Of a stretch of 64,000 nucleotides of DNA, positions 45,297-55,499 are shown one piece after another; the stretch's first letter is position 1, and every line of letters begins with the position of its first letter. The notes beneath the pieces are model-generated. The model searched no databases, was not told where the DNA came from, and was given only the letters and a program-made list of their open reading frames with translations. The stretch is from positions 310,001 to 374,000 of the forward strand of contig NZ_LDZY01000002.1 in NCBI RefSeq assembly GCF_001029285.1, given 5' to 3'. The DNA is from Desulfosporosinus acididurans (GTDB lineage: Bacteria > Bacillota > Desulfitobacteriia > Desulfitobacteriales > Desulfitobacteriaceae). The position numbers and the translations under genes are program-made.

Positions 45297-45503
45297 ATGT
45301 TTCGGTTTCCGATATGGGCGATAAAACAGGTGATTGAACATGCAGAAGCAGAGTATTACAGTCCCGAAGCAATCCGACGAGATCTTAGTCAACATCAGTA
45401 TATGTTGGAAAATCATGAAATCACCTTAGAAGAATATCGGGAATACGAAAAGCGACTCTTTGAACGTTTAATGGAAGGGAGAGAAAGAGGGATTGAAGAA
45501 TGA
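45297..45503 (+). CDS. gvpG: Gas vesicle protein GvpG
   Basis: The 68-residue protein (FRFPIWAIKQVIEHAEAEYY, LEEYREYEKRLFERL) fits GvpG, a short helical assembly factor usually between gvpF and gvpL, as here. ATG at 45297 follows GAAGGTGA. Its stop overlaps the gvpL ATG by 4 bp (ATGA), showing coupled translation. Confidence 0.85.
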   Translation: MFRFPIWAIKQVIEHAEAEYYSPEAIRRDLSQHQYMLENHEITLEEYREYEKRLFERLMEGRERGIEE

Positions 45504-46489
45504 AATGGTCCCTTGAAGAGTGGGAAAATAGTATCGAAAAACTTGTAAATCAGTGCTCAGAAAAGGTGCTCGAAGAACTAGAAAAAGTCATTATGGCGAA
45601 GTTAAGAGAAAGCGGTGAAGCAGTGATAGCTCAGGGCTTTTTAAAAGCGAAGCCCTTGTCATCAGTCGTCAATAGCGTCCAGCATCAATTGCCTCAAGAC
45701 AACAAGGATGAGTTATTGTACGCTATTGGCATTACAAAGACTCTTGAAAAACCGATTTCGTTGTTTGGCATGGAGGACAGGCCATGCCATCTTATTGAAA
45801 GCGGCAGTCTAAGTATGCTTGTTTGCCCGGTATCCCGAGAAGAATACAGTGAAGAATCAATTCACAACCATATGGAGGATATGGTTTGGGTTGAAAGCCA
45901 GGCGCGTCGTCATGAGGAAATTATATTGAAAACAATGGAAGATAGGACGGTCATTCCTCTTCCCTTCTGTACGATTTATAGGAATGCCGATAACGTCAAG
46001 CAACAACTTACAGTAAATGCTGAGAAAATAGAAAATGATCTCACTCGTCTGGAGAATCATTATGAAATGCAAGTTAAGGTTTCAGTTAATAGTCAACAGT
46101 TGTTGGCAAAACTTCATAATGACCTTCCCTATTCAGGTAACCAAAATGGCGGGGGGTATTTTCAAAAACTGCAATGGGAGAAAAAGCTTAAGGCAGAAAT
46201 GGAACAAATGATGAATGATTATGGAGAATCGTTTTATAAAGACCTAAACAGCATTTCGACAGAAAGCCTCCTCCTGGAAAAGTCGGAGGTAGTAGTTCAA
46301 GATGATTATTGCCTTGTATTTGCTGCGCATTATTTGCTTCCTAATGACCATCTTCAAGAATGGGATACAAAACTTAACGCATTTGATGAATTGACCGATT
46401 CTTTAGGTTTTATGGTTGAGGTATCCGGTCCCTGGCCCGCCTATCATTTTTCAAGGCTAAACAATGAGGAGGAAATAGCAGGTGGGTGA
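45500..46489 (+). CDS. gvpL: Gas vesicle protein GvpF/GvpL family with N-terminal extension
   Basis: The 329-residue protein has a helical extension of about 70 residues (WSLEEWENSIEKLVNQCSEK...) ahead of a full GvpF/L domain beginning LLYAIGITK near residue 72 and ending VEVSGPWPAYHFS. The extension has no match among usual GvpL proteins and may be a fused small Gvp. It overlaps gvpG by 4 bp and the next GvpA-family gene by 8 bp. Confidence 0.9.
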   Translation: MKWSLEEWENSIEKLVNQCSEKVLEELEKVIMAKLRESGEAVIAQGFLKAKPLSSVVNSVQHQLPQDNKDELLYAIGITKTLEKPISLFGMEDRPCHLIESGSLSMLVCPVSREEYSEESIHNHMEDMVWVESQARRHEEIILKTMEDRTVIPLPFCTIYRNADNVKQQLTVNAEKIENDLTRLENHYEMQVKVSVNSQQLLAKLHNDLPYSGNQNGGGYFQKLQWEKKLKAEMEQMMNDYGESFYKDLNSISTESLLLEKSEVVVQDDYCLVFAAHYLLPNDHLQEWDTKLNAFDELTDSLGFMVEVSGPWPAYHFSRLNNEEEIAGG

Positions 46490-46682
46490 TATTGCCAATA
46501 CAAAAGAAGTTACTCTGCTCGAAGTCGTTGAAAAATTGCTGGATAAAGGGGTTGTAATTTCGGGTGATTTAATTCTAAGCTGTGGGAATGTTGATTTGGT
46601 TTATTTAAATTTGAAGCTCGTTCTTACTTCCGTTCAAACTATGCTTGAAGGTAGTCATCAGAAGAAAGATGTGTCGGTATGA
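46482..46682 (+). CDS. gvpS: GvpS/GvpJ-type minor GvpA-family protein
   Basis: The 66-residue protein resembles the GvpA fold (TLLEVVEKLLDKGVVISGDL, then VDLVYLNLKLVLTSV) but with changes typical of the GvpS/J/M minor proteins that help start or cap vesicles. GTG start at 46482 follows GAGGAGG. It overlaps genes on both sides (8 bp and 4 bp). The S designation rests on order as in Bacillus megaterium (after L, before K). Confidence 0.8.
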   Translation: MGDIANTKEVTLLEVVEKLLDKGVVISGDLILSCGNVDLVYLNLKLVLTSVQTMLEGSHQKKDVSV

Positions 46683-47428
46683 AGAAACTTTATCTTTTGG
46701 CGTTCACTCGCCATGGCGCAGATTTGCCATGTGAAGCACCATTGTGGGTAAAATGTACAACTGTAGGAGAGTATAGTGTCCTTTGGTGTAATTCCCCTAA
46801 GGAGACGTTTAGTTCTAAACGAGAGTTTCTGTATGCGATGTTACAATGGTATGCAAGAATCAATGAGTTGAATCTGACCATATTGCCAATTCAGGCGGGT
46901 GTTATAACTTTCAGTGAGATCAATTTAGTCGAACTGTTGAACAAATATACCAAAGAACTTGAAGATTGTTTCGCCAAAGTCGATGGCTGCTCTGAGTATT
47001 GCTTAATTTTAGCACATAAGGAACGAGACTCAGCACATTTTCCTAATCTTCGAGACAAGGAAAATGTGCAAAGTGGAAAGGAGTACCTTAATCGGTTGAG
47101 AGTCAGGCATGAGTTTTTGGCTAGAAAAGTAGCACAGACTCGAGAACTAGTTGAGGATTTGTGTTCATCGTTAACTCCTTTGATCAAAGATTCATGGTTT
47201 GAGCTTCCTAAAACTATTGAATCAGGAGTTTATCCGAGCTTCTTAGTGTCTAATTCCCTTAGAGGAGAGTTTATTCATAAATTAGAATCACTTGCTGTTA
47301 ATTGTGATTGGACTATCGATTATACAGGTCCTTGGCCCCCTTTTCATTTTAGCTCACTGTCCTTAAAATCCGAAAAACACCTGCTGCGAGAATCATCCCA
47401 GTGGGTAAACAGGGAGGTGTTTCCATGA
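46679..47428 (+). CDS. Divergent third GvpF/GvpL-family protein
   Basis: The 249-residue protein keeps the family ending IDYTGPWPPFHFS and the middle ILPIQAGVITFSE (equivalent to IPLRFGT), but its N-terminus (KKLYLLAFTRHGADLPCEAP) is altered and it has several extra Cys. It overlaps gvpS and gvpK by 4 bp (ATGA at both ends). A third F/L paralogue is less usual outside actinobacteria and cyanobacteria; its role is unknown. Confidence 0.8.
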   Translation: MKKLYLLAFTRHGADLPCEAPLWVKCTTVGEYSVLWCNSPKETFSSKREFLYAMLQWYARINELNLTILPIQAGVITFSEINLVELLNKYTKELEDCFAKVDGCSEYCLILAHKERDSAHFPNLRDKENVQSGKEYLNRLRVRHEFLARKVAQTRELVEDLCSSLTPLIKDSWFELPKTIESGVYPSFLVSNSLRGEFIHKLESLAVNCDWTIDYTGPWPPFHFSSLSLKSEKHLLRESSQWVNREVFP

Positions 47429-47757
47429 TTGAAAATGATGAATCCGGTGATAAGATAGCCGAAAGTTTAAGCAGTTTCGAAGAAAGCAGCAATATTGGGC
47501 GTGTTAATGCTAATAAAGGTAATCCAGATCAAGGATTGGCAAAATTGGTACTTACAGTTGTGGAATTGTTGAGAAGAGTTATGGAACATGAAGCTTTGCG
47601 GCGTATTGAAGGCGGAACTTTGACCGATGAGGAAATCGAAGAAATGGGTCAAACTTTTCTGAAATTGGATGGCAAAATGATTGAAATGCGTGAGATATTT
47701 GACTTAAAGGAAAGTGATCTTAATCTAGATCTGGGTCCTCTGGGTAATTTAATGTAG
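47425..47757 (+). CDS. gvpK: Gas vesicle protein GvpK
   Basis: The 110-residue protein matches GvpK: GLAKLVLTVVELLRRVMEHE, ALRRIEGGTLTDEEIEEMG and a final DLNLDLGPLGNL. GvpK is conserved and needed for vesicle formation. ATG at 47425 overlaps the previous stop and follows GGGAGGTG. Confidence 0.93.
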   Translation: MIENDESGDKIAESLSSFEESSNIGRVNANKGNPDQGLAKLVLTVVELLRRVMEHEALRRIEGGTLTDEEIEEMGQTFLKLDGKMIEMREIFDLKESDLNLDLGPLGNLM

Positions 47758-47777
47758 AGGAAAGAAGGGGAAGCGGT

Positions 47778-48128
47778 TTGGCAATTCAACACTCCAATAA
47801 CAGCAGTAGCTTGGGCGATCTCTTAGAACGAATTTTGGATAAGGGGATTGTCATTGCTGGAGATATTAAAATATCTTTAGCAGATGTTGAACTGTTGAAC
47901 ATAAAAATTCGTTTGCTTGTAGCCTCAGTCGATAAAGCCAAAGAAATGGGCATTGATTGGTGGGCACATGATCCTTATCTTTCATCGAGGGCTAGAGCGC
48001 AAGAACCCGCAGCTTTGGAAGCTGTTGCGCCTGCGCAAATTGCTTTACAAAATGAGGAGAGCGTGGGAAATCCTGCAGAGGTATTAGAGAATGATGCAAC
48101 TATTAAGCGGCCAAGATATCGTACTTAA
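47778..48128 (+). CDS. gvpJ: GvpJ-type protein with C-terminal extension
   Basis: The 116-residue protein has a GvpA-like core ([40 protein letters not shown]) followed by an Ala/Glu-rich tail of about 45 residues, the form of GvpJ or GvpM minor components. The start is TTG at 47778, 7 nt after AAGAAGGGG. It is the last gene before a strong terminator. Confidence 0.82.
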   Translation: MAIQHSNNSSSLGDLLERILDKGIVIAGDIKISLADVELLNIKIRLLVASVDKAKEMGIDWWAHDPYLSSRARAQEPAALEAVAPAQIALQNEESVGNPAEVLENDATIKRPRYRT

Positions 48129-48157
48129 CGTTTAAGATGGAGCTGTACCCAATCAAT

Positions 48158-48207
48158 AAAGGCGTTCTCATTTCACTATATACTAGTGAAGTGAGAACGC
48201 CTTTGGG
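48158..48207 (+). terminator. Terminator of the main gvp operon
   Basis: AAAGGCGTTCTCA (48158-48170) pairs with TGAGAACGCCTTT (48192-48204); inner arms TTCACTA/TAGTGAA extend the stem. It separates the operon from gvpA copy 3. Confidence 0.85.
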
Positions 48208-48330
48208 TATTTGCCATCCACTTCGGTATTTTAGGAGTAAGTTTTCAGGACAGCTATTTATGTTTTCTATTAAGTAAAAAATAATTATATTTATGCACCA
48301 TGTCCAAAACTAAGCATATTATACAGTAGG

Positions 48331-48371
48331 ACAAGGACAAGGACAAGGACAAGGACAAGGACAAGGACAAG
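48331..48371 (+). repeat. Hexanucleotide tandem repeat (ACAAGG) upstream of gvpA copy 3
   Basis: Six full ACAAGG units and a partial seventh, perfect throughout, end 13 bp before a TATAAT box (48385-48390). With a 17-bp spacer the -35 hexamer would fall within the last repeats (48362-48367), so copy number could tune or switch the promoter. Confidence 0.9.
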
Positions 48372-48409
48372 TTTCATCCTAAGGTATAATTAGAGAGGGG
48401 GTAAACCTT

Positions 48410-48622
48410 ATGAAAAAGGATGTCGATTCCTCAAGCCTGGCAGAAGTTGTTGACCGCATTTTGGAAAAAGGGATAGTAATTGATGGATATGTTAGAGTTT
48501 CCTTAGTTGGCATTGAACTCCTAACAGTTGATCTCCGTATCGTTATAGCAAGCGTCAATAGCTTTTTGAAATATGCTTGTGCAGTAGGACTAACTACTGA
48601 ACATTATGGTGACCTGTTCTAA
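48410..48622 (+). CDS. gvpA: Gas vesicle structural protein GvpA (copy 3)
   Basis: The 70-residue protein is nearly the same as copy 1 ([40 protein letters not shown]). It has its own promoter region with a TATAAT box and an upstream hexanucleotide repeat, a GAGGGGG ribosome site, and its own terminator, so it is a separate transcript that may boost shell protein supply. Confidence 0.96.
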
Positions 48623-48717: not shown

Positions 48718-49710
48718 TTAGAGGAGGGTTTGATAAGCGTCGAAGGTCATTTCGGCAACTTTGGACCAGGTGTAATGCAGGCGCAGGTGATGCATTAAGG
48801 GTAAAGGTGATGCCTGAAAGGATTGCTCGAGGGCAAGGCGTAAACCTTCATTATCAAATGGATGCACATATAAGGCCATATCCTGGAAGTACTCTTTAGG
48901 GCTTCCTTGATCTGTGGAAATAACGACGGTCCCGCATGCTCCAGCTTCAATGCTGGACAAACCCGGCGTCTCGAACCAACTCGGCAGGACATGTGCTTTG
49001 GCAGCAGAATAAGCTGAGGCCAGAAGTTCTCCCTGTAGCGTTCCGAGATGATAAATATTGGGAAAAAGCATTACGCTTTCGAAATAAGCTTGGTCATTTA
49101 TAGGACCTAATAAGACAACCGGAAGACTAAGTTCTTGTGCAACTTTCGCTAACCAGTGCTGGTTTTTGCGTGGCGAAATTCTTGCCGCACAGAGCACAAA
49201 CTCTTGGGGTAAATGGGGAAATTGTTGGCGAAAAGCATCTGGATCAACACCTATAAAAGTATCGGGGAATCCGTTGGGGATAACTTTATAGTTTGCTGCT
49301 TTAGGGAAATCTTGAAGGAGAGCATCCATCTCCATCTGGCTATTCGGGAGTAAGAGTTGGCATTCCCTAACTAATCGATCACGCATGGGCTGCATATGTT
49401 TCCAAATCGCTAAGGCATTGGGATGGATGCCCTCTCTTTTCAGAAAGGCAATAGGCGGCCAATAAATTGGTGATATAAGGATTTGCTTGTGTTGTTTTTG
49501 AGCGTTGCAAAAAAACATGTAACTTTCCTTAATTCGTGTAATATTGAATATGTGTATTAAATCATAAAGGGTTAAATCAAGGTTGGGGTCTGCGGAAAAA
49601 TTCACTTCAACTCCAAGTTTTATCAGATTTTGGCCTGTGGAGATCAACTGAACTGTATCTCCGGCAGGGTTTTTCATGAGATCTGGGCGTGCTTGAAAAA
49701 GTACTTTCAT
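48718..49710 (-). CDS. GT4-type glycosyltransferase
   Basis: The 330-residue protein resembles GT-B retaining transferases. The C-terminal half carries FVLCAARISPRKNQHWLAK and the ExxxxxGE-like GLSSIEAGACGTVVI segment near residue 250, which binds the nucleotide sugar. ATG at 49710 follows AGGAGGC; the longer frame is not needed. It is the last gene of a minus-strand operon with cgeB and a hidden selenoprotein gene. Likely sugar addition to a surface or spore component; acceptor unknown. Confidence 0.8.
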   Translation of the reverse strand: MKVLFQARPDLMKNPAGDTVQLISTGQNLIKLGVEVNFSADPNLDLTLYDLIHIFNITRIKESYMFFCNAQKQHKQILISPIYWPPIAFLKREGIHPNALAIWKHMQPMRDRLVRECQLLLPNSQMEMDALLQDFPKAANYKVIPNGFPDTFIGVDPDAFRQQFPHLPQEFVLCAARISPRKNQHWLAKVAQELSLPVVLLGPINDQAYFESVMLFPNIYHLGTLQGELLASAYSAAKAHVLPSWFETPGLSSIEAGACGTVVISTDQGSPKEYFQDMALYVHPFDNEGLRLALEQSFQASPLPLMHHLRLHYTWSKVAEMTFDAYQTLL

Positions 49711-49771
49711 CGAAAGCCTCCTATTCATATTAGCTCAATCACCGAAATCTGAAGGAGACTTGAGCCAGCGA

Positions 49772-50722
49772 TTATAAGGTTTCGAGAATTGCTCGAACGG
49801 ATTGTATCCGGTGTTTATATGTATGGCTGCGGTATACTTCCTCTTGGCCTTGGCGAGCAATTTTGAGCCGGAGATCATCTCGGCTTAGATAAAAACGGAC
49901 GAGCTCAATCGTTTCGTCGGGATGGCGGCTCCAGACGAGATGAACGTGGTTTTTAAAAAGAGCTTCCAGTGCTGGTGACCAATGGGTTAAGAAAAAAGCT
50001 TGACATCCTAATGCTTCAAAAGTGCGCATACTCATCATTGTTGGGGAGGTTATTACTGAATGCAAACCTAGTACAATCTTTGCCGAAGAATACGCGCAAG
50101 GCAGCCGGTTGTAGGATAAATAACCTTGGTAAATGTTTGAAGGTAACGTATAGTGGTCAGAATTTGATAGCCAATGTTCGTTGCCGTATACTTTCAGACG
50201 AAACGGTTCGTTGAGTAAGGGAGTGAGGATTGTATCGAGACCAGTTTTCCTTTGAGGATAGGATGTATAGTAATTGGCTACCAGCAGTAAGTCGCTTTGA
50301 AGATCAAAGGACGGCTCAACGGGTCGATGAAACGATGGATTGCAGGCAAAATGAAAGTAATGCGCTCGAATTTTGTCTCTCTGATATAGGGGTAGACACT
50401 CTTTGGCTGGAGTAAGTACGAGACTGGCCCCGCGCGCTAAGGGACGGGACATGCGGTTCCAGTCGGGGGGATCGTCGATTGCCCAATAGACGAGAGGAAC
50501 TGAATAACGACGTAGAAGCGGAAAGAGTCTCCGAGCTACTGTTGAAATTGAAACTCCTTCAGCAAAAGCGAAATCTGGTCTTTGTTTTCTTAATAAGCGG
50601 TCCAAACGATTTTCCCAATCGGCCGAATGGACCGGAAGATACTCAAAACTATCAGAAGAAGAAAAACCCGATGCTAAGCCATAGCTCAACAATGATGAAT
50701 CGTTCAAAAATAATAAGTTCAT
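49772..50722 (-). CDS. cgeB: CgeB-like spore glycosyltransferase
   Basis: The 316-residue protein resembles Bacillus CgeB (spore maturation, DUF3880 plus glycosyltransferase region). Typical parts are RPDFAFAEGVSI near 48, PLVYWAIDDPPDWN near 77, and the C-terminal FEALGCQAFFLTHW plus VRFYLSRDDLRLKIARQGQE. ATG at 50722 overlaps by one base the stop of the DUF1858 gene (TAATG) and lies 9 nt after GGAG. It probably glycosylates outer spore-coat proteins. Function by homology. Confidence 0.75.
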   Translation of the reverse strand: MNLLFLNDSSLLSYGLASGFSSSDSFEYLPVHSADWENRLDRLLRKQRPDFAFAEGVSISTVARRLFPLLRRYSVPLVYWAIDDPPDWNRMSRPLARGASLVLTPAKECLPLYQRDKIRAHYFHFACNPSFHRPVEPSFDLQSDLLLVANYYTSYPQRKTGLDTILTPLLNEPFRLKVYGNEHWLSNSDHYTLPSNIYQGYLSYNRLPCAYSSAKIVLGLHSVITSPTMMSMRTFEALGCQAFFLTHWSPALEALFKNHVHLVWSRHPDETIELVRFYLSRDDLRLKIARQGQEEVYRSHTYKHRIQSVRAILETL

Positions 50723-50952
50723 TAATAATGTCTCCACTCGTCGCCGAATTGTTTCATAACAACCTCTAAGGATTTGATCAGAGTTGCTGAATTAAGATGA
50801 TAACGTTGAGCAGCCTGCTCAATACTCATATTGAGTAAACTTTTGGCCCCTCAGCCACTTGTTGAGATCCCGAATTTTTTAAATACAAATGCTGTTTGAG
50901 GATATTTCGATAAGATTTCCGCAAGGTTGGATTGTAAGTTTAGGTGATCCAT
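50722..50952 (-). CDS. DUF1858-like redox protein with in-frame TGA (probable selenocysteine)
   Basis: Reading through one TGA (50853-50851, codon 34) gives a 76-residue protein. It begins MDHLNLQSNLAEILSKYPQT and matches DUF1858: a helix ending in VFKKFGI, then a redox motif, then SIEQAAQRYHLN. DUF1858 proteins have GhxCxGC; here the motif is GISTSG-TGA, so TGA falls exactly at the second Cys and Thr at the first. ATG overlaps the upstream gene by 13 bp and the TAA overlaps the cgeB ATG by one base, so the full frame is kept for coupled translation. A SECIS-like hairpin lies at the right distance. A plain nonsense mutation is the alternative. Confidence 0.65.
50818..50835 (-). promoter_or_regulatory. 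Candidate bacterial SECIS hairpin
   Basis: On the minus strand, CTCAATA and TATTGAG form a perfect 7-bp stem with the loop TGAG. The loop starts 23 nt after the in-frame TGA and has G as its second base, both within the known bacterial SECIS limits (loop 16-37 nt from UGA, G in the first two loop positions). Confidence 0.5.
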
Positions 50953-52622
50953 TTGTTCCAAAAACCCCCTTTATTTTTCGATTCGGTCTTCTCCTGAAGC
51001 TGGCAAATTTGCATACCGAGGTTTTCTAAAGAGGATTCATTTTCCTCCTGTTTGGTTAACATTTTATGCAGGATTTGAGAGAGCCCTTGTGTTTCTTTTT
51101 CGAGATTTGACATGGCCTCTTTAAAAGGCTCCAATTCTTCGACAGGGACTTCGGGCGTGGCGGCCGGGGCTTCTTTTAAATCTTCAGAGAAATTGACATC
51201 GTTTTTGGAAATAGTAGTTTCTGAGAGGGCATTAAGGATCTGGTCAAATTTGGACATTATAGCTTGTAACGTATGACTCAGATTAGAATTTTCTTGTTCC
51301 AAGTGGGTAACAGTTGTGATTAGATGTTCGAGTTGAAGGTTTTCTTGTTGGGGCTGAGATTGAGGCGGATCTTCCTCCTGAGAAGGAGTTGGCGATTCGG
51401 GAATATCTTGGATAACCTCTGAAGAAGGATCTGCTTCTTTTGGCGGATCATTAAGATTTAAGGGATTTTCTGAGGTTGAAACAGGGGAAATGGGATAATA
51501 AGTTGCTGAGGATACTTCGGGATAGTAGGCTGGAACAGGAGGGGGGGGAACTGAGGGACTTGTTTTAGTTGAGAGCGACTGAAAAGTAGCAAGTTGAGGC
51601 GAAGTGGAAAGAACTAAACCCAATTCACGATAATACACCGGAGTACGTCGTTCAACCTGACTTTCTAACCAAAGCGTTTGATGGAAGTTTCGTTTACTTT
51701 TATGAACCCATTGCAAGGGCTGATAGAAAGGCGTGTGTGTGGAAACCAATCTCCAACCTGCGCCATCATTAAACAGCAGGATTTCTTCTTCGCTTTGGAT
51801 TAAAAGCCAGATAACGCCGTTAACTTCCAAAGAGCCGAGATTTTTCCAAGGAGAGGAAAGGGTTCTAATGGGAGCGGGCGATGGGAGCCATTCTCCCGTC
51901 AGTTCAAGGGCATTCGTTTGCTGTGCCCAACGAACTTCAAACTGCCCATTAGTAGTTTTAACAGCCCAAAATAGATGATGAACATTGTCTGAGGTCATAA
52001 GTGCGGTCATATCTATAACTTCGCCGGAAATCTTCAGGGCTTGAGTCGGTGAGCCCCATATGTGAAATGTTCCATTAAAACGATTTGTAAAGAGGAGGGA
52101 ATACCTCCCTTGGAAGGTTAAGGTGACTAAATGGAGGTTCCCCTGCCTATCCATGTTTACATGATAGAGGGGCACTCGCGGATGAACAACTTCCCCTAAA
52201 TGAACACTGTTCCAAGTCGCACCATTCCAGAAATGGTGCTCAATACGCCAGAGATCACGAATAGCCTGGTGGGAACAAGCATAAAAAATATGTATCATTT
52301 TACCTTGAGGAAATAGAAAGAGCCGACGATATTTAGTTGTCCGAACATCCAATTTGGAGATCAAGGTTGTCTGTGGACTTGAAGAACGGGGAATCAGCGT
52401 ATAACAGAGTTCGCCGTTTGTCTTTAAGACAACCAGATGAACAGTTTCAGAGTCTGTCATGATTCCGTGGGCTAAAAGCAATGGTTCTTGAATTCTGAAG
52501 TAAGGTTCGGGGGTATCCTTTCCGAAAAGGGCACATCCTTGAGAATCAATATGCAAATAGGTAGATTCGTTTTCATAGGTTAGAAGTAGAGAATTTGGTG
52601 TGGTTCGATTTAAGAAAGCCAT
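50940..52622 (-). CDS. Beta-propeller-like protein with proline-rich linker and coiled coil
   Basis: The 560-residue protein is not of a family I can name. Residues 1-345 are a set of repeated beta segments with Trp and aromatic residues, like a sialidase- or lectin-type propeller. Residues 365-430 are Pro/Ser/Glu-rich. Residues 430-540 form a coiled coil, and the end is basic and aromatic (GGFWNKWIT). There is no signal peptide. Neighbouring spore glycosyltransferase genes suggest a spore or cell surface structural protein. Its 3' end overlaps the selenoprotein gene. Confidence 0.65.
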   Translation of the reverse strand: MAFLNRTTPNSLLLTYENESTYLHIDSQGCALFGKDTPEPYFRIQEPLLLAHGIMTDSETVHLVVLKTNGELCYTLIPRSSSPQTTLISKLDVRTTKYRRLFLFPQGKMIHIFYACSHQAIRDLWRIEHHFWNGATWNSVHLGEVVHPRVPLYHVNMDRQGNLHLVTLTFQGRYSLLFTNRFNGTFHIWGSPTQALKISGEVIDMTALMTSDNVHHLFWAVKTTNGQFEVRWAQQTNALELTGEWLPSPAPIRTLSSPWKNLGSLEVNGVIWLLIQSEEEILLFNDGAGWRLVSTHTPFYQPLQWVHKSKRNFHQTLWLESQVERRTPVYYRELGLVLSTSPQLATFQSLSTKTSPSVPPPPVPAYYPEVSSATYYPISPVSTSENPLNLNDPPKEADPSSEVIQDIPESPTPSQEEDPPQSQPQQENLQLEHLITTVTHLEQENSNLSHTLQAIMSKFDQILNALSETTISKNDVNFSEDLKEAPAATPEVPVEELEPFKEAMSNLEKETQGLSQILHKMLTKQEENESSLENLGMQICQLQEKTESKNKGGFWNKWIT

Positions 52623-52742: not shown

Positions 52743-54293
52743 CTAGCAATTGTCCTGTTGTGGTGGGAAGAAATCACTGGGGAATGGAGTAAGAGTGGTA
52801 TCGAAGAAATTAAGACACGGATTCTGAGGAATAACTGGGAATTCTTCACAAGCCGGAGGCTCTGGACAGAAGCCAAAGGCAGGAACAAGAAGTTGAACAA
52901 CACCGGTTACTTTAGTTATGACAAAGCTGCCGATGGCAATTTGAATAGTTGTTGTTGTAAAGACAGGACTTGTTAAAACTTCAGTTCTTGTTTCAACACG
53001 AAGATTAAAGTCAAATTCTGGACGAGTGGGTGGGAAATACATAACAATATCTTTGTTAATATCCGGCAAGTTTCCTGTTACAGTAAACAGGGCGCCTGTT
53101 GAATCTCTCAGAGTCAGAGTATAAGGTATCTCAATGGTGAATTGAACCCTGGAGAAATTGGGACGAGATGGAATTGGAGTTATGACGATACTGCCGGGAA
53201 CAATCACGCCATTTGCAAAAGTCATGCTGATAAAGGTGAACGGAGGTACTCCTGTAGGCAATGTGACTGTGAAAGCAGGGAAACATTCTCTTTGCTGACA
53301 GCTGGCATAAACTTTTTCTACAATGATACAGACTGATTCGGTGATCTCTTCGAGTTGGTAAGGGTCGAGTAAATCAATAGGTTCACTCGGTGATAGAGCC
53401 GATCCAACTCTGCCAACGGTAACCCCTCTTGGTGGGAAGGACGTGGGAAGAGCAGCTGCAATAGTATTTGTGGTGGTATTAATTATGCTGATAGAACTGT
53501 CTCCTTCATTAGCAACCCATACTTGAGTGCCATCACCGGTGACAGCTATGCCAAGCGGATTGATGCCAACAGGTACTGTTGTGGTGACATTGAGTCCAGT
53601 GGTTGAGATGACGCTTACACTGTTAGAGGTAAAGTTGGTTACATACATGAAGACTGGGTTGACAGGGTTGACTGCGATTTTTTGAGGATCTGAACCAACA
53701 GGAATTGTACTTATCAACGTATTGTTTGAAGTGTTGATGACACTGACATTGTTACTTCCGCTGTTAACAACAAAAAGTTTTGAATTATCTAAGCTGACTG
53801 CTAGACCGTCAGGTGAAGTTCCGACTGGAATTGTGGCTATAACGGTATTTGTTACAGGATTAATGACAGAAACTGAATTGCTGCCACTATTGCTGACATA
53901 AACGCGGCTGCCATCGCGAGCAATGGCTACGTCCACAGGATTCGAGCCAACGGTAATTGTTGCAACTACTGTATCTGTTGGAATGCTGATGACAGAAACT
54001 GTTCCGCTTCCGGAGTTTGTCACGTAGGCTGTTGTACTAGTTGGGTCAATAGCTACGGCAGTAGGAGCAAGCCCCACCGGAATGGTTGCTAAGACACGAT
54101 TTGTAGAGGTACATAAGATTGAGACGGTGTTACTTCCTTGATTCGGGACTAAAACTTTGATACCATCCGGCGTACGTTTTGGGAAAGCGGGCGCAATTCC
54201 TACGGGGATGGTGGCGACAAGCACGTCGCTGTATACGTTATATATGGCGACTGCGTTGTCGAGGGTTACCCAAGCATGGGTTTCAAATAGCAT
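52743..54293 (-). CDS. YVTN beta-propeller surface protein
   Basis: The 516-residue protein has about seven YVTN-type repeats in residues 1-300 (repeats of VSVIxxxTNTVxATIPVGxxPxGxA), forming a propeller. The C-terminal 200 residues hold a Cys-containing beta domain (CQQRECFPAF, FCPEPPACEEFP) common in spore and surface proteins of Firmicutes. No signal peptide is seen. AAGGGGGG precedes the ATG. With the adjacent glycosyltransferases it is a plausible glycosylated spore-surface protein. Confidence 0.8.
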   Translation of the reverse strand: MLFETHAWVTLDNAVAIYNVYSDVLVATIPVGIAPAFPKRTPDGIKVLVPNQGSNTVSILCTSTNRVLATIPVGLAPTAVAIDPTSTTAYVTNSGSGTVSVISIPTDTVVATITVGSNPVDVAIARDGSRVYVSNSGSNSVSVINPVTNTVIATIPVGTSPDGLAVSLDNSKLFVVNSGSNNVSVINTSNNTLISTIPVGSDPQKIAVNPVNPVFMYVTNFTSNSVSVISTTGLNVTTTVPVGINPLGIAVTGDGTQVWVANEGDSSISIINTTTNTIAAALPTSFPPRGVTVGRVGSALSPSEPIDLLDPYQLEEITESVCIIVEKVYASCQQRECFPAFTVTLPTGVPPFTFISMTFANGVIVPGSIVITPIPSRPNFSRVQFTIEIPYTLTLRDSTGALFTVTGNLPDINKDIVMYFPPTRPEFDFNLRVETRTEVLTSPVFTTTTIQIAIGSFVITKVTGVVQLLVPAFGFCPEPPACEEFPVIPQNPCLNFFDTTLTPFPSDFFPPQQDNC

Positions 54294-54389
54294 GTGTGTA
54301 TTCCCCCCCTTTATTGAATCGAGAAAAAGTTAGACTGTGCAGGATTTCCAACGTTTTCAACGTATTGTATTCCATAGTTCTGTAGGGTG

Positions 54390-55397
54390 TTACACGCTTT
54401 CTTGATTTTGGCTAGTCATTATTAGAATTTGCTGAAGCATTCTGCCACTTCGTTGTGTCCAATCGTTTGCGTGAGCATAGGACATTCGTTCAGCTTTGTT
54501 TGAATCCTTTTCTGTTAATAGATGACGTAAGCGAAGGGAGAATAAACGGGAATCACTTTCAAGATTGATTTTAGGAACTGGGAGCAATTCGGGCAGAGGT
54601 GTGGCTAATACCTGAATTCCCGCAGCGTAATATTCATAGAGTTTAATGGGGTTGCATCCCTTTGTCATTTCTGTTAGCAGAAATGGTATTAATCCAACGT
54701 CAAAGTAATGTAGGTAAGTCGGCAGGTCATAATAAGATTTCAACCCTAAATAGTAAACGTTTTTAAAATTTAACGGAAATTTATATTTCTGAAAAAGGGC
54801 CCCGATAAATACAAAGTTAAGATCATTATTTTGTTGGATCACGGTTTTAAGCAACTCCCAATCAACCCAAGGAGCTATTGCACCGCTGTAGCCGATAATG
54901 GGTTTGCCCATCGGCAGATCCTTGGGGCGGCTAGTGGGAGAGGGGGAAAAATGCACGTAATCTACGCCATTAGGAACCAGATATACCTGAGGATGCCTTG
55001 GGTAAAAATAGTTATAGATGCTTTGGCTGCTACAAAAAATAAGATCTGCCTTTTCAAGGATAGTAGGGTAATAGGGCGCCCAACTTGCAAATTCTTCTTT
55101 GGGCTCATCAACAGCATCGTAGATAACGAGATCAGGATTATAATTGGAAATAACGTTAATATGAGAGGGAACTGTTAACCAAAGTATACGTGGTCGTAGA
55201 TGTGAAACCTCAAGGGCTGAAATTCCTTGACAGAGATGCAGACTTGAGGATAAGCTCCTGATTCTAGGATGAGGAAAGTTCCCCAGGTCTTCATATAGAA
55301 CCGTGTGTCCAGATGAGGAAAATTGTCCAAGAAGTTGTTGAGGTCGTTGAAACATCCAATTCCAAGGTATTGAGGGAGGATAGATGAAGGTTGGCAT
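54390..55397 (-). CDS. GT4-like glycosyltransferase
   Basis: The 335-residue GT-B protein has an N-terminus IPWNWMFQRPQQLLGQF, typical of transferases in spore and surface operons, then VIYDAVDEPKEEF and a C-terminal donor site with PIKLYEYYAAGIQVLATPLPE. AGGAGGT lies before the ATG. It is the first gene of the minus-strand surface operon (54390 to 48718). Acceptor and sugar unknown. Confidence 0.8.
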   Translation of the reverse strand: MPTFIYPPSIPWNWMFQRPQQLLGQFSSSGHTVLYEDLGNFPHPRIRSLSSSLHLCQGISALEVSHLRPRILWLTVPSHINVISNYNPDLVIYDAVDEPKEEFASWAPYYPTILEKADLIFCSSQSIYNYFYPRHPQVYLVPNGVDYVHFSPSPTSRPKDLPMGKPIIGYSGAIAPWVDWELLKTVIQQNNDLNFVFIGALFQKYKFPLNFKNVYYLGLKSYYDLPTYLHYFDVGLIPFLLTEMTKGCNPIKLYEYYAAGIQVLATPLPELLPVPKINLESDSRLFSLRLRHLLTEKDSNKAERMSYAHANDWTQRSGRMLQQILIMTSQNQESV

Positions 55398-55499
55398 TGC
55401 GTACCTCCTTGGTTTGGGTTATAAAATATTGCTCTTATAGTTAAGGTATGTTAGTTATCCTCAATTGGGAATTAAGAGGAAGTATTTTGTTCTAGTTAA

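Follow-up and report, generated by a model that had tools for sequence, protein, structure and literature searches.

DUF1858 (PF08984) is listed as a selenoprotein family with the motif CxxU, for example, WP_012065717.1, in two catalogues (PMC9312934 and PMC13188914), and these were the only papers that a literature search found to name DUF1858 as a selenoprotein. The main text of PMC5029168 mentions neither DUF1858 nor Desulfosporosinus. Searches for selenocysteine (Sec) with CgeB and for the redox disulfide domain with selenocysteine retrieved no paper, and titles and abstract beginnings contained no report of selenium use in a glycosyltransferase cluster with a sporulation-type motif. Other systems that bear some likeness are the hybrid-cluster-associated redox disulfide domain (TIGR03980) and the ScdA/YtfE proteins.

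The window analyzed here, a stretch of 64,000 nucleotides from Desulfosporosinus acididurans (contig NZ_LDZY01000002.1, positions 310,001 to 374,000), contains a predicted selenoprotein gene that shares with the catalogued CxxU selenoproteins the PF08984 domain and the location of Sec at the second Cys of the CxGC motif. It also shares its type of hairpin with 12 clostridial CxGU genes of the family (3 from Lutispora, 1 from a Clostridiaceae metagenome-assembled genome [MAG], and 8 others). Since DUF1858 selenoproteins have, on the evidence of the catalogues, already been described, the gene is a variant of them and not a new kind, and an earlier note on this DNA, which did not know DUF1858 as a selenoprotein family, is superseded on this point. 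Unlike the CxxU proteins, whose catalogued example is represented by a table entry alone, the protein has TSGU: the first Cys is missing in 30 of 31 Sec orthologues, which have T, V, I, P, or S at this position, and in all five Cys orthologues. Its gene also differs from the catalogued forms in being fixed in a glycosyltransferase/propeller cluster and from the CxGU genes in spacing: the hairpin loop starts 35 nt past the TGA in each of the 31 Sec orthologues and 29 nt past it in each of the 12 CxGU genes. The protein aligns with TIGR03980 over residues 8 to 62 but scores below the model cutoff (33.1 versus 44.95 bits) and lacks the Cys pair. YtfE entries occurred among its structure matches and ScdA entries among its profile matches, and the match to the ScdA/YtfE N-terminal domain (DUF542, PF04405) was weak (19.4 bits; gathering score, 32.5), but at 76 amino acids the protein is too small to hold the di-iron domain of these proteins. 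Judged from sequence, what differs here is a lone Sec without the first Cys, fixed in a glycosyltransferase/beta-propeller cluster with a sigma-E/K-like motif upstream.

The reading frame from 50952 to 50722 contains a single in-frame TGA, at codon 34. Its first 13 bp (50940 to 50952) lie within the upstream gene, and its stop codon has one base in common with the downstream start codon (TAATG). The frame of 76 codons, its coordinates, its one TGA (50853 to 50851), and the overlaps at both ends are as the earlier note described them. The frame with its TGA is no chance event, because within the genus it is retained by 26 of 29 genomes, always with a single TGA and always at codon 34. Standard annotation probably splits or drops the gene, as no NCBIfam model matches it above its cutoff.

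Table 1. Location of the predicted selenoprotein gene, its RNA hairpins, and features of the surrounding cluster (window coordinates)
Feature	Coordinates	Strand	Remarks
GT4-type glycosyltransferase, conserved cluster	48718..49728	minus	
Downstream CgeB-like glycosyltransferase (PF13524)	49772..50722	minus	Start overlaps the Sec gene stop, TAATG
Predicted selenoprotein gene, DUF1858 fold with lone Sec	50722..50952	minus	76 codons + TAA stop
Putative Sec TGA codon, residue 34, within TSGU	50851..50853	minus	TGA in 31 orthologues, Cys codon in 5
Best-supported candidate SECIS hairpin, UUGAGCA-GGC-UGCUCAA	50822-50806	minus	Apical loop 50815-50813, 35 nt past the TGA
Hairpin of the earlier note, CTCAATA-TGAG-TATTGAG	50835-50818	minus	Complete in the strain, less kept in relatives
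560-aa protein, C-terminal part coiled-coil-like by eye	50940..52622	minus	Overlaps the Sec gene by 13 bp
YVTN beta-propeller protein, Cys-rich C-terminal part (by eye)	52743..54293	minus	
TuaH-resembling glycosyltransferase (below model cutoff)	54390..55397	minus	First gene of the conserved block
CATACCTTA, with sigma-E/K-like -10 motif CATANNNTA	55442..55450	minus	53 nt upstream of the first gene

The orthologue count for the genus includes the strain's own genome. The three Desulfosporosinus genomes without an orthologue are G027 (99% complete), which nevertheless contains selA, and G005 and G010 (both 79% complete). Among 16 other genomes of the family, five have an orthologue with TGA (G030, G031, G034, G060, and G065), five have one with TGC or TGT (G032, G033, G061, G062, and G063), and six have no match of orthologue strength. 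Codon 34 is therefore TGA in 31 and Cys in 5 of 36 orthologues and TAA or TAG in none, the pattern of Cys homologues and further TGA cases that the earlier note had named as support. Both an in-frame TGA and Cys at the Sec position in homologues, two of the criteria used for bacterial selenoproteins, are thus present, and Cys also occupies this position in other DUF1858 proteins. Orthologues are well separated from all other matches: in 82 genomes of the class, no orthologue had an E value weaker than 1.3e-21, the best of all other matches was at 8.6e-12, and none of orthologue strength lay outside the family. Among 398 genomes sampled from a larger set in the phylum, with at most 14 candidates scored per genome, the next best matches were near 1e-11.

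The genome (4.64 Mb in 47 contigs) contains selA (565.6 bits), a tRNA-Sec gene (selC; anticodon tca), selB (379.6 bits) approximately 1 kb from the tRNA-Sec gene, and three selD genes above the cutoff, so that each of the sel genes that the earlier note asked for is present. Two selD genes have one in-frame TGA each. By eye, hairpins whose loops contain GG follow the TGA of two of the three copies (G000:C10, C7, and C13); in the second TGA-bearing copy, the loop is GGC, as in the DUF1858 gene. Desulfosporosinus orientis appears in a table of multiple tRNA-Sec predictions in PMC5330540. Above-cutoff selA was found in 29 of the 31 genomes with a Sec orthologue; G065 has only a fragment below the cutoff, and the orthologue-bearing G016 (85% complete) has no match. 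Four of the five genomes with a Cys orthologue have selA, which was not found in the fifth, G033, listed as 100% complete.

With Cys substituted for Sec, the read-through protein matches PF08984 with 32.8 bits, a narrow margin over the gathering score of 32.2, and the match (residues 5 to 59) extends across the TGA position. The structure model (pLDDT, 88.4; pTM, 0.74) has five helices, and residue 34 directly precedes a short helix at residues 36 to 40. Foldseek gave no match at an E value of 0.001; its best matches were 2K5E (TM score, 0.76; E value, 7.2e-3) and 2K53 (E value, 3.7e-2), and 2K5E was also the best match of the profile search (E value, 1.5e-4). Both entries are presumably DUF1858 protein structures. 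The placement of the TGA at the second Cys of the DUF1858 motif, as proposed in the earlier note, is borne out. The residue three before Sec is T in 21 of the 26 genus members, and the other five have one each of I, V, P, S, and C. Outside the genus, all five Sec orthologues have V here, and the Cys orthologues have F or V. The non-Cys residue at this first position implies that members of the subfamily have a lone Sec or Cys. A Cys at residue 15, considered as a resolving residue, occurs in only 10 of 26 genus members and is not general. Beyond the subfamily, the other DUF1858 Sec genes have CxGU in 12 cases and UxGC in one, L154 (G439:C100:23216-23404), where the TGA is at the first Cys; its hairpin forms five of seven pairs, and its SECIS was not located. 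DUF1858 matches with two in-frame TGA codons also occur (G355:C165 and G309:C138) and may be double-Sec forms or have a terminal TGA stop.

Two overlapping hairpins follow the TGA. The earlier note offered CTCAATA-TGAG-TATTGAG as the SECIS and placed its beginning 23 nt after the TGA; the hairpin exists, but 15 nt separate the TGA from its stem, and it is the loop that falls at about the 23rd nucleotide. The second hairpin, UUGAGCA-GGC-UGCUCAA, overlaps it by 5 nt and begins 13 nt further on. Across the 26 genus sequences, pairing is intact in 84.1% of cells for the 7 pairs of the earlier hairpin, whose closing pair forms in only 8 sequences; this hairpin is less well conserved than the GGC-loop hairpin, 8 pairs of which are formed in 93.8% of cells, and was rejected as the main SECIS. 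All seven stem pairs of the GGC-loop hairpin are present in 23 of the 31 Sec orthologues, and six in the remaining 8, which have one mismatch. A hairpin of the same type, with 6 or 7 of 7 pairs, is found in 12 of 13 other TGA-bearing DUF1858 genes (3 from Lutispora, 1 from a Clostridiaceae MAG, and 9 from other genomes of the phylum), the exception being the UxGC gene L154; the last nine are those with loci read among the 21 TGA-bearing matches listed. Only 3 to 5 of the 7 pairs are present in the five Cys orthologues and in all 10 scored Cys DUF1858 genes (4 of 14 lacked the anchor motif and were left out of the scoring), and the hairpin is degraded in Cys forms though the amino acids encoded there are similar.

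The hairpin was also compared with the published bSECIS model, whose rules, as given in PMC13188914, are a loop of 3 to 9 nt, a stem of 4 to 16 bp, G within the first two loop positions, a spacing of 16 to 37 nt, and a minimum free energy of at most -7.5. Applied by hand, these rules accommodate the 7-bp stem, the GGC loop, and the spacing of 35 nt, and the 48 nt after the TGA have a minimum free energy of -13.2, although the optimum that includes the TGA uses another pairing. When folding was compared with that of random synonymous recodings, 30 of 35 Sec sequences had z scores from -1.05 to -3.84, and the other five (L027, L031, L033, L118, and L120) had scores above -1; the five Cys orthologues ranged from -0.97 to +0.69. 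No two-sided change (covariation) in the hairpin was found within the genus, and covariation was therefore sought across Clostridia, where one pair varies as U-A, A-U, and C-G. RNAalifold recovered all seven pairs in the 12 CxGU genes alone (-6.9). An Rfam scan of 50600 to 51000 gave six matches and no SECIS family; all six were far below gathering scores and were dismissed as chance. The combination of TGA and hairpin had no match in viral contigs.

These observations indicate that UGA codon 34 is almost certainly decoded as Sec, because the frame and the UGA are conserved, Sec and Cys exchange at this position, the hairpin is under constraint, and the Sec machinery is present; sequence by itself could hardly give stronger support. 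TGA is a stop in translation table 11, and the overlaps with both neighbouring genes would also suit a true stop, leaving a 33-residue peptide and a remainder that is a relic or is kept only for coupling to the next gene. Selection on the frame makes this very improbable: among the 26 genus sequences, pN/pS is 0.249 after the TGA (codons 51 to 74) and 0.242 before it (codons 1 to 33), whereas the two alternative frames give ratios of 1.07 to 2.16, and the whole frame is therefore read as protein. The frame is thus retained after the TGA, where its loss would have counted against the earlier note. The DUF1858 match across the TGA and the Cys codons of the five orthologues, with TAA or TAG in none of 36, likewise argue against termination. 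Codons 35 to 50 have a pN/pS of 0.319 because pS falls there (0.637 in codons 1 to 33, 0.291 in codons 35 to 50, and 0.615 in codons 51 to 74). Synonymous change is lowest in this region, with a diversity of 0.44 in codons 1 to 33, 0.28 in codons 35 to 43, 0.12 in codons 44 to 50, and 0.34 in codons 51 to 74. Taken alone, the conserved frame would fit any read-through, including near-cognate or Trp decoding without Sec insertion, but this SECIS-like constraint after the TGA, Cys as the replaced residue in orthologues, and a full set of Sec genes leave that explanation hardly credible.

Decoding as Sec is, with only slightly less certainty, predicted to be directed by a SECIS within this stretch, and the main alternatives concern its identity. 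A selenoprotein could instead use the hairpin of the earlier note or an extended fold that pairs the UGA with 50810 to 50807. When the sequence is folded singly, the structure of minimum energy (-18.3 kcal/mol; z = -2.93) contains the extended stem, which RNAalifold also favours on the 26 genus sequences, without covariation, and the GGC-loop hairpin does not account for the CTC fixed at codon 40 in 26 of 26 genus sequences. The pooled fold of 43 Sec sequences (L154 excluded), however, gave six pairs of the GGC/GGG-loop hairpin and neither alternative, albeit at a weak -2.1 kcal/mol; the poorly kept closing pair counts against the earlier hairpin, and a loop that starts with GG matches the bSECIS model of PMC13188914. 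One of the alternative pairings is therefore considered unlikely to be the SECIS, and UUGAGCA-GGC-UGCUCAA the probable one.

Gene order around the predicted Sec gene is largely kept as glycosyltransferase, YVTN propeller, 560-aa-type protein, Sec gene, CgeB-like protein (in most loci), and GT4. In all 42 orthologue loci, which include several genomes twice, the next matched gene upstream is of the 560-aa type, although some of these matches stop a few hundred bases short of it. The downstream gene, which takes the name CgeB from the earlier note and whose query began at 50707, five codons inside the start, is present in 35 of the 42 loci, and both downstream genes are absent from the stretch read in G033. 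The 560-aa protein has no Pfam match at an E value of ≤0.001. Further along the window, the predicted proteins at 45500 to 48622 look by eye like what we take to be gas-vesicle components (GvpF/L- and GvpA/J-like).

The motif CATANNNTA, which we take to be the -10 element of mother-cell sporulation sigma factors (sigma-E/K), is found ahead of the first gene of the cluster in 19 of 27 loci, 16 of which have it 38 to 61 nt before the start, and is missing in 8; the -35 element of such a promoter was not resolved. Regions of <120 nt and matches beginning after query residue 8 were left out of this count, as were seven loci presumed to be repeats, of which L109 was no repeat, and one genome (L087/L115) may be counted twice. 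In control regions upstream of four other genes, partly coding and therefore of different composition, the motif was found in 3 of 115, and its frequency in the window predicts 0.05 per region. A separate conserved block lies upstream of the YVTN gene (54294 to 54403, minus strand), where TGTAACACCC is followed by a GAATA..ATAC..TGAAAG-like stretch; the block with this stretch recurs in most of the loci compared, other genera of the family among them, and is a possible operator or promoter. The glycosyltransferase neighbours and the promoter-like motif suggest that the Sec gene may be linked to the spore, and expression of the cluster at the time of sporulation is somewhat favoured.

In the proposed mechanism, SelA, SelB, SelC, and SelD of the organism would decode UGA codon 34 as Sec, with the GG-containing loop of UUGAGCA-GGC-UGCUCAA, 35 nt downstream, most likely directing insertion. 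The product would be a small redox protein built of five helices. Its one selenol, located just ahead of a short helix and without a partner Cys of the usual kind, could react transiently with a thiol outside the protein to give a selenyl-sulfide; this thiol would most likely belong to the propeller protein, which is rich in Cys, or to another product of the cluster. Such chemistry would be set in the assembly of a glycosylated surface layer, probably in the mother cell. A redox role for the single selenol is a reasonable suggestion that falls a little short of an even chance. The complete picture, of a lone-selenol DUF1858 protein without a CxxU pair that is made in the sporulating mother cell from a spore-surface glycan operon and acts on the propeller Cys residues, is more tentative.

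The gene adds a strongly supported selenoprotein subfamily for which no NCBIfam model scores above its cutoff and provides an example of a predicted Sec protein missing the usual partner Cys. As this one family has Sec and Cys orthologues, with the hairpin present or degraded to match, the SECIS is directly testable. The locus also places the predicted use of selenium in a conserved cluster of glycosyltransferase genes that is preceded by a promoter motif of the sporulation type and, if the proposed role is true, selenium chemistry would serve the building of the spore envelope.
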